Shown in pieces: positions 4,764-14,520 of a stretch of 18,927 bases of DNA. How positions within the stretch are numbered: the first letter of the stretch is position 1; every line of letters starts with the position of its first letter. Position numbers and translations under genes: made by a program. The notes under the pieces were generated by a model. The model made no database searches, was not told where the DNA came from, and saw only the letters and a list, made by a program, of their open reading frames with translations. This stretch comes from an uncultured Eubacteriales bacterium (GTDB taxonomy: Bacteria > Bacillota > Clostridia > Christensenellales > CAG-138): contig URSN01000026.1 in assembly GCA_900550525.1 (NCBI GenBank), forward strand, positions 1 through 18,927. Reading direction: 5' to 3'.

Positions 4764-6020
4764 ATGAGTCAGTTAAGGGGCGCCTGCATCATCGGGCAGT
4801 CCGGCGGGCCGACGGCGGTCATCAACGCCAGCGCGTACGGCGTCATCCGCACCGCGCTGGACAATCCGAACATCACCAAGGTCTACGGCGCGGCGCACGG
4901 CATCCGCGGCGTGCTCGACGACGTGCTGTACGATATGGGGCAGGAGGACCCGGACGAACTGGCGCTCATGATGCACACGCCCTCGTCCATCCTCGGTTCC
5001 TGCCGCTATAAGCTCAAGGATTTTGAAGAGGACGATACCGATTACAAGCGCATCCTTGAAATTTTCAAAAAGTACGACGTGCGCTACTTCTTCTACAACG
5101 GCGGCAACGACTCCATGGACACCTGTAACAAGATCTCCAAGTACATGCAGATGGCCGGCTACGAGTGCCGCATCATGGGCGTGCCCAAGACCATCGACAA
5201 CGACCTGTGGGGCACGGACCACTGCCCGGGGTTTGCCTCCGCGGCCAAGTATGTGGCGACCAGCTGCATGGAGCTGTATCACGATGCGTTCGTGTACGAT
5301 ACGTCCATGATCTGCATCATCGAGATCATGGGCCGCCATGCGGGCTGGCTGGCCGGCAGCGCGGCGGTCGCCTCGTATCTGGGGCAGGGGCCGGACCTGG
5401 TCTATCTGCCGGAGGTCGATTTTGACATGGACGCGTTCCTTGCGGACGTGTCGCGCATCTATCAAAAGCGCGGCAAGTGCATCATCGCCGTATCCGAGGG
5501 CATCCACGACCGCGAGGGCCGGCTCATCGCCGAGTACGCCTCACACGGCGAGACGGCGGTCGACTCCTTCGGCCACAAGCAGCTCGGCGGCCTTGCGGCC
5601 ACGCTCGTGGCCATCGTGCGCGAGAAGCTCGGCGTGACCAAGATCCGCGGCATCGAGCTGTCGCTGCTGCAGCGCTGCGCGGCGCACTGCTCGTCCGAGA
5701 CGGACGTGGAGGAGGCGTTCCTCTCCGGCCAGAAGGCGGTGGAGTACGCGGCCATCGCCGGCGTGACGGACAAGATGGTGGGCCTGGAGCGCAGCTATGA
5801 CCGCGACGGCCGCTACCAGTGCAACATCCGCCTCGTGGAGCTGACCGACGCCGCCAACGCGGAGAAGAAAGTGCCGCTCGAGGGGATCAACGCGCGCGGC
5901 AACGGCGTGACGAGCGAGTTTGTGGACTATGTGATGCCGCTCATCCAGGGCACGCCCAGCCTCGTCTACGAAAACGGCATGCCGCGCTTTGCCAAGCTCA
6001 AAAAGATCGCCGCCATGTGA
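4764..6020 (+). CDS. pfp: Pyrophosphate-dependent 6-phosphofructokinase
   Basis: 418 residues. It carries the phosphofructokinase motifs GQSGGPTAVINAS (residues 11-23), GGNDS (113-117), PKTIDND (141-147) and MGRHAGW (189-195). The GGND form (Asp116 where ATP enzymes have GGDG) together with Lys142 of PKTIDND marks pyrophosphate rather than ATP as phosphoryl donor. The enzyme reversibly phosphorylates fructose 6-phosphate to fructose 1,6-bisphosphate in the cytoplasm, saving ATP in fermentative glycolysis. The start is supported by GGGAGGT 10 nt upstream and the first glycine-rich loop just inside. It is monocistronic by layout: its own promoter at 4696-4724 and a strong terminator at 6056-6095. 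The aldolase and GAPDH genes lie within 7 kb. Confidence 0.93.
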   Translation: MSQLRGACIIGQSGGPTAVINASAYGVIRTALDNPNITKVYGAAHGIRGVLDDVLYDMGQEDPDELALMMHTPSSILGSCRYKLKDFEEDDTDYKRILEIFKKYDVRYFFYNGGNDSMDTCNKISKYMQMAGYECRIMGVPKTIDNDLWGTDHCPGFASAAKYVATSCMELYHDAFVYDTSMICIIEIMGRHAGWLAGSAAVASYLGQGPDLVYLPEVDFDMDAFLADVSRIYQKRGKCIIAVSEGIHDREGRLIAEYASHGETAVDSFGHKQLGGLAATLVAIVREKLGVTKIRGIELSLLQRCAAHCSSETDVEEAFLSGQKAVEYAAIAGVTDKMVGLERSYDRDGRYQCNIRLVELTDAANAEKKVPLEGINARGNGVTSEFVDYVMPLIQGTPSLVYENGMPRFAKLKKIAAM

Positions 6021-6335: not shown

Positions 6336-7796
6336 ATGAAACGGAGATTCACCGGCGCGCTGCTCGCGCTGCTTGCGCTCTGCCTGGCATGTTTCCCGGC
6401 AGGAACGGGCGCGCTGGCCGCGCAGCCGTCGCAGACAGAAGCATTTGACCGGGGCGTCATCACGGGCGAGGGCGTCGCCTTCCGCCGCGGCGCAAGCCTG
6501 GACGCCGGGCTCATCCGGCGGCTTTCGCGCGGCACGGCCGTCGAGATCCTGGAGACGAACGTCAACGCGGAATGGCACCGCGTGCGCGTGGACGGCGACA
6601 CCGGCTACGTCAACCGCCTCTACGTCAGCCTTGACCCGTCGCTGCCGTCCTACCGGCGCGCGTATACGGGCACGGTCGTCAACTGTAACGAGTCCGTCAA
6701 CGTGCGCGCCGCGGCAAGCGCCTCCTCAAAGCGCCTCGGCACGGCGCCAAAGGGCAGCGTCTGGACGGTGACGGAGGCGTACTGCGCCGGCGGCTGGCAC
6801 CGCATCGACTATCAGGGACAGCCGGCCTATATCTTTGGCGAGTATCTCTCGCTCGCCGCGCAGGCGGACGACGGGCAGCTCGCCTCGCTCACGGTGACGG
6901 GCGGCACGATGAGCCCGGCGTTCTCGCCGGATGAATACGGCTACGTCGTGCGCGCGGACGCGCCGGAGGTCACCATCGCCGCCGCGGCCAACGACGGCGC
7001 GGCGGTGGACGTGGGCGGGACGGGCCTTGCACAGTATACCGTCAGCATGCCGGCGTCCGGCAGCAAGACCATCCGCATCGCCGTGGACGGCCAGGTGCGC
7101 TACACGCTCTACCTGGTGCGCGGCGCGCTGGTCGTGGGCAGCTGGAACATCAAGCGCGGCAATTCCAACCTGGAGATGCAGGGCTGGCTCGTGGAGAGCC
7201 AGCAGCTCGACGTGCTGGCGCTGCAGGAGGTCTACCGCAACACGGGCGGCAGCGGCACGGACAATCTGCGCAGCCTGCGCACCAGGGCCATGCAGCACAT
7301 GGATTTCGCCGCGGCCATCGACTATTCCGGCGGCGGAGCGTACGGCGTGGGCCTGCTCTCGCGCTTTGAACTGACGGACGCCTCCGCCAGCAAGCTCTAC
7401 AGCGGCTCGTATGAGCAGCGCGTGCTGCAGCGCGCCGTCATCACGGTGGACGGCAAGCGCGTCTCGCTGTACAATACGCACCTGTCGTTCAACTCCGCGG
7501 CGCTCAGGCGGCAGCAGTTTGCCGCCATTCTCGACGCGCTCGAGGCCGACGAGAACCCCTACCGCATCATCTTCGGCGATTTCAACGCCGCCGCCTCGGA
7601 ATATGCGCAGCTTAGCGGCTATACGGCCGTCAACACGCGGGATACGGCGTTATACGATTATGCGGGCGAGCCGATCTCCAAAAACGAGATCGACAACATC
7701 CTCGTCACGCCCAACATCACCGTGCTCAACGCGCGCCTCATCGAGAACGACTGTTCCGACCACCGCATGCTGGTGGCCTATCTGCGCCTCGACTGA
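6336..7796 (+). CDS. Secreted SH3b / cadherin-like / endonuclease-exonuclease-phosphatase protein
   Basis: 486 residues, start set by CGGAGGG before the ATG. Order of parts: signal peptide (1-29); SH3b-type repeat 1 (about 40-100, with GEGVAFRRGAS and GYVNRLYVSL); SH3b repeat 2 (about 110-175, VNVRAAASASSKRLG and YIFGEYLSL); a cadherin-like beta-sandwich (about 182-263, LASLTVTGG..SPAFSPDEYGYVV); and a complete EEP domain (about 265-485). Visible EEP catalytic residues are Asn271 (SWNIKRG), Glu298 (LQEV), His382 (NTHLS), Asp415 and Asn417 (GDFNA), Asp453 (EIDNI), and Asp475-His476 (SDH). Bacterial SH3b domains usually bind peptidoglycan, so this looks like a wall-associated metal-dependent phosphodiesterase; the substrate (DNA, RNA, phospholipid or inositol phosphate) is open. 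Monocistronic by layout. Confidence 0.85.
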   Translation: MKRRFTGALLALLALCLACFPAGTGALAAQPSQTEAFDRGVITGEGVAFRRGASLDAGLIRRLSRGTAVEILETNVNAEWHRVRVDGDTGYVNRLYVSLDPSLPSYRRAYTGTVVNCNESVNVRAAASASSKRLGTAPKGSVWTVTEAYCAGGWHRIDYQGQPAYIFGEYLSLAAQADDGQLASLTVTGGTMSPAFSPDEYGYVVRADAPEVTIAAAANDGAAVDVGGTGLAQYTVSMPASGSKTIRIAVDGQVRYTLYLVRGALVVGSWNIKRGNSNLEMQGWLVESQQLDVLALQEVYRNTGGSGTDNLRSLRTRAMQHMDFAAAIDYSGGGAYGVGLLSRFELTDASASKLYSGSYEQRVLQRAVITVDGKRVSLYNTHLSFNSAALRRQQFAAILDALEADENPYRIIFGDFNAAASEYAQLSGYTAVNTRDTALYDYAGEPISKNEIDNILVTPNITVLNARLIENDCSDHRMLVAYLRLD

Positions 7797-12648: not shown

Positions 12649-13641
12649 CTATTGCGCGGGCGCGGGCGGCGCGTCCTCCGGCGGCGCGTCCTCCGAATGG
12701 AAGTGGGCGTAGACCGCCTCGGCGGCCGGCCGGGTCATCGCCGGCACGGCGGCGAGCTGCTCCACGGTGGCGGCCTTCATCGCGTCGAGCGTGACGAATG
12801 CGGCGAACAGGGCGCGCTTGCGCCGCGCGCCGATGCCGCCGATCTGGTCGAGCACGGAGAAGAGCGCGTTCTTCTGCCGCAGGCTGCGGTGGTAGGTGAT
12901 GGCGAAGCGGTGCGCCTCGTCGCGCAGCCGTTCGAGCAGGTGCAGCGCGGCGCTGCTGCGCGGCAGGGCGAGCGGCTGCTCCTCGCCGGGCTGGTAGACC
13001 AGCTCGTGCGCCTCGGCCAGACAGATGGCCGGCACGAACGGCAGGCCTGCCTCCGCGAGCACCTCGAGCGCCACGTCCAGCTGCGTGCGCCCGCCGTCGA
13101 TCACCAGCAGGTCCGGCAGGCGGTCGAACCCCGCGTCGCCGCTTGCAAAGCGGGCAAAGCGCCGCGTGAGCGCCTCGCGCATGGCGACAAGGTCGTCCCC
13201 GCCCGCCTCGGCGCGGATGCGGAAGCGGCGGTACGCCTTGCGGTCGGGCTGGCCGTTGGTGAACACGACCATGGAGGATACGGTATCGCGCCCCTGTATG
13301 TGCGAGTTGTCGAAACATTCCAGCCGCTCCGGCACGCTCTCGAGCCCCAGCAGGCCGGACAGCTCCGCCAGCGCGCCCTCGCCGCGCTCCCAGGCGCGCC
13401 GCTGCAGGGCCGCGTCCTTTTCCAGCGCGTCGATGCAGTTGCGGTAGGCCATTTCGGAAAGCTTCGCCTTTGCGCCGCGCTGCGGCCGGTGCAGCAGAAC
13501 CCTGCGCCCGGCGCGCTCGGACAGCCAGGCGGCGATGGCGTCCATATCCGCCGCCTCGCCGTGGAGCAGGATCTCGGGCGGCGGCGCCGCGTCCTCGAGG
13601 AAAAACTGCTTCAAAACCGCGTCGGAGATCTCCTCGTCCGA
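12649..13641 (-). pseudogene. uvrC: UvrC C-terminal portion, separated by in-frame amber codons
   Basis: The same reading frame as the N-terminal portion continues after the third TAG (13644-13642). It encodes about 330 residues beginning SDEEISDAVLKQFFLED and includes the UvrC RNase H-like 5'-incision domain: ECFDNSHIQG with catalytic Asp, LLVIDGG with the second Asp, DEAHRFAITYHRSLR with the His, and the C-terminal helix-hairpin-helix region (IGGIGARRKRALF and VPAMTRPAAEAVY) that binds DNA. It ends in a Pro/Ala/Glu-rich tail and TAG at 12651-12649. No frameshift is present. The first usable start would be a TTG at 13614 with no convincing ribosome binding site, so alone it is unlikely to be well translated. 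Confidence 0.8.
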
Positions 13642-13686
13642 CTAACCAGCGTCCGCGCCCATGCGGAACTTCTACGTGCCGACGAC

Positions 13687-14520
13687 CTAGACGTCGCGCA
13701 CGAACAGCGCGAACACCAGCGCGCTGCCGTCCAGCCGCCCGAGCGCGAACACGTCCATGCGCTCCCTGCGCGTGCCGATGGCGGCCTGCCTGTCGCGCAG
13801 CGTCTCCACCGCGCGGATGCTGTCGCGCAGCGCGGCGGCGCGCTCAAACTCCAGCGCGTCCGACGCCTGCTGCATCTTCTCGTGCAGCTCGCGCAGCACG
13901 CGCTCGGTGTGGCCGGTGAGGAAGGCGCAGATCTCGTCGAGCATCGCATGGTACTGCGCGCGCGTCACGCTGCCGGAGCAGGGCGCGCAGCACTTGCCCA
14001 CATGGTACATCAGGCAGGGCCGCTCGCGCCGGGCCATCGCCTTTTTCAGGTCCTTGCGGCAGTGGCGCACGGGAAAGTGCTCGCGCACGACGTTCATCCC
14101 GTCCCGCAGCGCGATGCCGGAGAGGAACGGCCCGAGATAGCGCGCGCCGTCGTTGTGCACGCGCCGCACGATCTCCACGCGCGGGAAATCCTGCCGGTAG
14201 TCGATGCGCACATAGGGGAAGTGCTTGTCGTCCTTGAGCAGGATGTTGTAGCGCGGCTTGAACTGCTTGATCAGGTTCGATTCGAGCGTGAGCGCCTCGG
14301 TCTCGTTGGCCGTGCGCAGCGTTTCAAAATCGGCGATGTGGCTGACCATCGCCCGCACCTTGGGCGTGTGGTTCTTCGAGGACTGGAAGTACTGCCGCAC
14401 GCGGTTCTTGAGCGACACCGCCTTGCCCACATAGATGACCTCGCCCGCGGCGTTGAACATCTTGTAGACGCCCGGCGCGTTGGGCAGCAGGCGCAGCTTT
14501 TCCTCGATGAGCTGGTTCAT
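13687..14520 (-). CDS. uvrC: UvrC N-terminal portion (excinuclease subunit C), ending at a premature TAG
   Basis: 277 residues: GIY-YIG nuclease domain (about 12-95; GVYKMFNAAGEVIYVGKA, then SLKNRVRQYF), a Cys cluster region (CLMYHVGKCCAPC, about 169-181) and the UVR UvrB-binding helices (about 204-240). UvrC makes both incisions in nucleotide-excision repair. Intact UvrC is about 600 residues; this frame stops at TAG 13689-13687, then meets TAG at 13674-13672 and 13644-13642, after which the rest of UvrC continues in the same frame (623 codons in all). As read, this fragment keeps the 3'-incision domain but lacks the 5'-incision and HhH parts. The start ATG overlaps the maf stop (ATGA), so it is translated as the third gene of xth-maf-uvrC. 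Confidence 0.85.
   Translation of the reverse strand: MNQLIEEKLRLLPNAPGVYKMFNAAGEVIYVGKAVSLKNRVRQYFQSSKNHTPKVRAMVSHIADFETLRTANETEALTLESNLIKQFKPRYNILLKDDKHFPYVRIDYRQDFPRVEIVRRVHNDGARYLGPFLSGIALRDGMNVVREHFPVRHCRKDLKKAMARRERPCLMYHVGKCCAPCSGSVTRAQYHAMLDEICAFLTGHTERVLRELHEKMQQASDALEFERAAALRDSIRAVETLRDRQAAIGTRRERMDVFALGRLDGSALVFALFVRDV

Follow-up and report, generated by a model that had tools for sequence, protein, structure and literature searches.

Dense substitutions confined to short regions have been described in Illumina data. According to PMC3334598, low-quality 3' ends of reads accumulate at particular places, in several cases almost exclusively on one strand, and the dense substitutions that come from such read tails disappear on trimming. 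PMC4787001 reports that error increases toward read ends and that the preferred wrong bases are G on HiSeq and G and T on MiSeq; it cites earlier work tying errors to inverted repeats and to GGC, but its own favoured cause is the chemistry of polymerase and nucleotides. In-frame TAG codons beyond which the reading frame continues are also a property of the pyrrolysine system and other amber suppression systems. The bacterial stop reassignments known at the time of PMC8629427 concern UGA, as that paper states. We compared with these systems a uvrC frame that is interrupted by three TAG codons.

The frame lies on the minus strand of an 18,927-nucleotide stretch of DNA from an uncultured clostridial bacterium, referred to here as the window. 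Its coding part (12652-14520) comprises 623 codons and is followed by a terminal TAG at 12649-12651; the internal stops are exactly three, every one of them TAG, at codons 278, 283 and 293 (Table 1). A frameshift was sought along the 623 codons and none was found, and reading of the frame confirmed the claim of an earlier sequence-only reading that the frame holds these three stops and no other nonsense codon. Compared with the family model TIGR00194 (UvrC, excinuclease ABC subunit C), the first piece of the gene scored 294 bits, above the cut-off of 285, and the second piece 224 bits, under the cut-off as expected for a fragment. A short in-frame repeat, EDAPPEDAPP, is found at the 3' end of the gene (window 12664-12693). 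The window uvrC resembles the family in that both flanks match it and in that an uninterrupted relative with 98% identity exists, whereas its own frame is broken by the three TAG codons and carries missense changes within the same 93 bases. We propose, with a probability of roughly 0.8, that this patch belongs to an ordinary uvrC in which sequencing or assembly went wrong locally, and the uvrC with three TAG codons is most likely not a biological feature.

Table 1. Position of the uvrC frame, its internal stops and adjoining features in the window
Feature	Window positions	Strand	Basis or remark
uvrC frame, 623 codons and terminal TAG, with three internal TAG	12649..14520	minus	ORF reading, UvrC match
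TAG, codon 278	13687..13689	minus	Lys in 119/120 relatives (best 120 of 7983 matches)
TAG, codon 283	13672..13674	minus	Glu in 117/120 relatives (best 120 of 7983 matches)
TAG, codon 293	13642..13644	minus	Glu in 118/120 relatives (best 120 of 7983 matches)
Patch of doubtful bases, codons 277-307: 3 TAG, 7 missense vs P0121, 3 rare codons with unchanged residue	13600..13692	minus	Comparison with P0121, codon use
Inverted repeats, 9 nt at 89% and 7 nt at 100%	13694..13748		Just upstream of the patch (coding strand); little weight

Relatives were sought with a UvrC query in which the stops were read as X. The search found 7983 proteins, and the best 120 of these 7983 are the relatives used below. 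The length limits of the search favour uninterrupted frames and, together with clustering at 90%, would hide broken forms. Among the matches listed, the best was P0121, an uninterrupted protein of 616 aa with 98% identity to the window UvrC, which is seven residues longer. P0121 is a predicted cluster representative, for 131 member sequences, whose contigs do not exceed 3,204 bases; it is probably from the same species as the window. The next relatives among the matches listed, P0122-P0162, are 88-89% identical to the window UvrC, and P0175, at 79%, is labelled Candidatus Aphodomorpha. The sequence-only reading had suggested an alignment with uvrC of close relatives; this alignment returned no interrupted frame in P0121 or the rest of the best 120 of 7983, within length limits that favour such a result, and it bore out the expectation that the TAG sites would carry Lys or Glu.

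The comparison with P0121 covered codons 1-609, codons 610-623 being omitted since the tail of the window protein is the longer by seven residues. Fifteen residue differences were found, and ten of them sit in the 31 codons from 277 to 307 (window 13600-13692). These ten consist of the three TAG codons and seven missense changes, at codons 277, 294, 299, 300, 302, 306 and 307. The earlier description of the gene as otherwise intact had missed these seven; with them included, one can no longer argue from a disruption by amber codons alone. G277, F302 and Y307, which are changed in the window, are identical in 120 of 120 relatives, and the residues that replace them (V277, V302 and F307) occur in none of the 120 (best 120 of 7983 in both cases). 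The remaining five differences are at codons 500, 504, 565, 573 and 609. Codons 504 and 609 vary among relatives, and the window residue at 504 is the commonest one there (46/120, best 120 of 7983). At the other three the window residue occurs in no relative: C at codon 500, where G is found in 119/119, A at codon 565, where D or E is found in 117/118, and A at codon 573, where D is found in 118/118 (gaps aside; best 120 of 7983). C500, A565 and A573 are isolated, not clustered; they may reflect additional errors, differences between strains or the early decay of a dead gene.

The clustering of the uvrC differences exceeds chance. When 15 changes were placed at random over 609 codons, in a rough test that takes all codons as equally changeable, a 31-codon stretch received at most seven in 200,000 draws, compared with the ten observed. 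A second measure, which draws on more than P0121, used the 298 uvrC columns whose conservation among the relatives reaches 97% or more (best 120 of 7983). The window deviates at ten of these columns, seven of which lie within one 31-codon stretch; among the 120 listed relatives, the maximum for any such stretch was four (in 1/120), and 105/120 reached only 0 or 1. In total deviations the window is exceeded by P0206 (15) and P0201 (14) and equalled by P0184, none of which has more than four in a stretch. So sharply bounded a patch is what would be left if the segment had been exchanged by recombination with a diverged uvrC or with another sequence. We consider this hardly credible, given that V277, V302 and F307 are absent from all 120 listed relatives and that a donor search across the window gave no unusually long match to the patch.

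The differences inside the patch require a minimum of 11 base changes, against five in the other 578 codons compared, and about seven of the 11 yield T on the coding strand; these changes were deduced from a protein, P0121. The patch contains substitutions only, with no insertions or deletions. Three codons in it, GCT at 291, GGT at 292 and TTG at 303, are rare and leave the residue unchanged, which suggests further silent changes. The codons that are rare in the window and found in the patch are GGT (1.0% of Gly), GCT (2.0% of Ala), TTG (2.2% of Leu) and GTT (2.2% of Val). The T content of the patch, 23/93, is the highest among 31-codon slices of uvrC; the slices average 13.7, and those that do not overlap the patch reach no more than 20. 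Judged window-wide on codon bias and T content alone, the patch is not exceptional: 523 of 4961 slices, including some from wrongly started frames, have a lower codon-bias score, and 118 are richer in T. The window-wide codon-bias scan was not useful as a marker of the patch, its lowest scores being dominated by wrongly set starts. An inverted pair inside the patch, with arms at 13621-13626 and 13637-13642, was given no weight, the 201 bases examined there containing several pairs of 6 bases.

To assess the soundness of the rest of the contig, we applied the conserved-column measure to the genes for GAPDH, aldolase and PFK. The window deviates at 0 of 161 columns in GAPDH and at 0 of 203 in aldolase, each judged against the 30 best loci (86/103 and 92/103 genomes matched, respectively), and at 1 of 173 in PFK, judged against 120 relatives among the matches listed. 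A local error is favoured by the restriction of the patch to substitutions, by the clean conserved columns of GAPDH and aldolase, and by the published cases of dense read-tail errors. The differences are clustered within about a read length or less, and they appear blind to function, in that missense, nonsense and rare silent codons occur together and invariant residues are struck. Wrong bases would be densely packed over about 93 bases, as happens where a consensus depends on one read or a few and on their low-quality 3' part, a read-tail origin that we infer from the pattern alone. Three of the wrong bases would have produced TAG, and others missense and probably silent changes. The likeness to the errors in PMC3334598 lies in substitutions that are crowded into a short region and spare other stretches; the difference is that those errors were shown on reads, whereas the patch is known from a finished consensus alone. 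The excess of T does not plainly fit the wrong-base preference given in PMC4787001, which counts against an error. Also weighing against it are the standing of P0121 as a predicted representative, the deduction of the base changes from a protein, the odd residues C500, A565 and A573 outside the patch, and the unexceptional codon bias and T content of the patch on the scale of the window.

If the TAG codons were read through or recoded, by a suppressor tRNA or as pyrrolysine, a full UvrC protein would be made. The frame does go on past each TAG, as in amber suppression systems, with UvrC on both flanks. However, recoding would explain the stops and not the missense changes that share the patch, and the codons around the TAG sites do not show normal constraint, with seven missense changes in 31 codons and G277, F302 and Y307 among the residues hit. 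The terminal TAG of the window gene stands near the residue where P0121 ends. A stop is visible in 76 related loci, and in 9 of them it is TAG that terminates uvrC; in the 80 loci as a whole, the first uvrC stop is TAA in 34, TGA in 33 and TAG in nine, and four run off the contig. The residue found in relatives differs by site, Lys at one and Glu at two (best 120 of 7983), and no internal TAG was seen in 15 further gene parts from the window. Among 103 genomes in the family of a relative, G001, none has a PylS above the cut-off; this and the missense changes around the sites are points of difference from pyrrolysine systems. G001 is the closest of the 103 by UvrC (70%) and GAPDH (90%), whereas in aldolase its 81% falls short of the 93% of G098 and G099. 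Weak PylS matches in 44/103 genomes were read as related synthetases and rejected as a sign of pyrrolysine, given the behaviour of control genomes, 13/14 of which gave matches and one a match over the cut-off. ARAGORN found no tRNA genes within the window, and PMC8629427 places the bacterial stop reassignments known at its time at UGA. A TAG inside the aldolase gene of genome G050 (L158:54-986) was rejected as a recoded site; it adjoins unknown bases (X), the protein match is lost there, and it looks like an assembly gap. Recoding is therefore disfavoured by the seven missense changes around the stops, the position of the terminal TAG, the lack of PylS over the cut-off in the 103 genomes and the uninterrupted frames of the listed relatives (best 120 of 7983, under length limits that favour such frames), and we regard it as very improbable.

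Among the explanations offered by the sequence-only reading, local sequence error is accordingly the best supported, suppression or recoding has lost ground, and a recent pseudogene keeps a small share of the probability. That reading had also counted 19 gene ends, 16 of them TGA, two TAA and one TAG; from 18 chosen coding frames, several with loosely set starts, we obtained the same numbers for TAA and TAG, the TAG being that of uvrC, with 15 TGA. For in-frame stops in a single contig, these results indicate that the stops should be weighed jointly with the surrounding missense changes: where stops come together with several successive changes at invariant residues, bad bases are indicated, since under recoding the remaining frame would stay normal. 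The locus thereby drops out as a misleading sign of TAG recoding in Clostridia.

The bases might instead be real, the gene being a very recent pseudogene in which one local burst of mutation, for example by error-prone gap repair, struck some 90 bases of this strain's uvrC and the remainder has had too little time to decay. An uncultured clostridium would then have been sampled just as it was losing an excision-repair gene. The cluster of ten changes itself is consistent with such a burst, as are C500, A565 and A573 elsewhere in the gene. So dense and mixed a burst is, however, unusual among spontaneous mutations, and the best 120 of 7983 relatives are uninterrupted, although the length limits of the search favour such frames. 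Templated mutation from a nearby repeat was also rejected, the longest exact matches of the patch elsewhere being 12 bases direct and 12 inverted, inside the range of 200 control segments from window 12701-14400 (11-17 bases direct, 10-15 inverted). Taken together, we judge a young pseudogene to be unlikely. The idea that the gene of a second species is interrupted at this site too was rejected after a search with the first piece, in which the last P0121 residue reached was spread over 160-499 (best 120 of 2112 matches). Counts per 20-residue bin ran from 2 to 15, with 11 at 260-279, 13 at 280-299 and the fullest bin at 340-359 (15), and no match exceeded 85% identity among the matches listed (best 120 of 2112). 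The match of one UvrC fragment, P0001 (276 aa, 73% identity), ends at P0121 residue 275, adjoining the patch, where either a stop or a contig end is possible.

Elsewhere in the window, PFK (window 5883-6017) was compared with P0324, a fragment with 99% identity. Three of 312 residues differ, and the last three codons account for two of these; the differences may be between strains or be more wrong bases. The protein encoded at window 6336-7796 has bacterial SH3 domains and, after them, an endonuclease/exonuclease/phosphatase domain.
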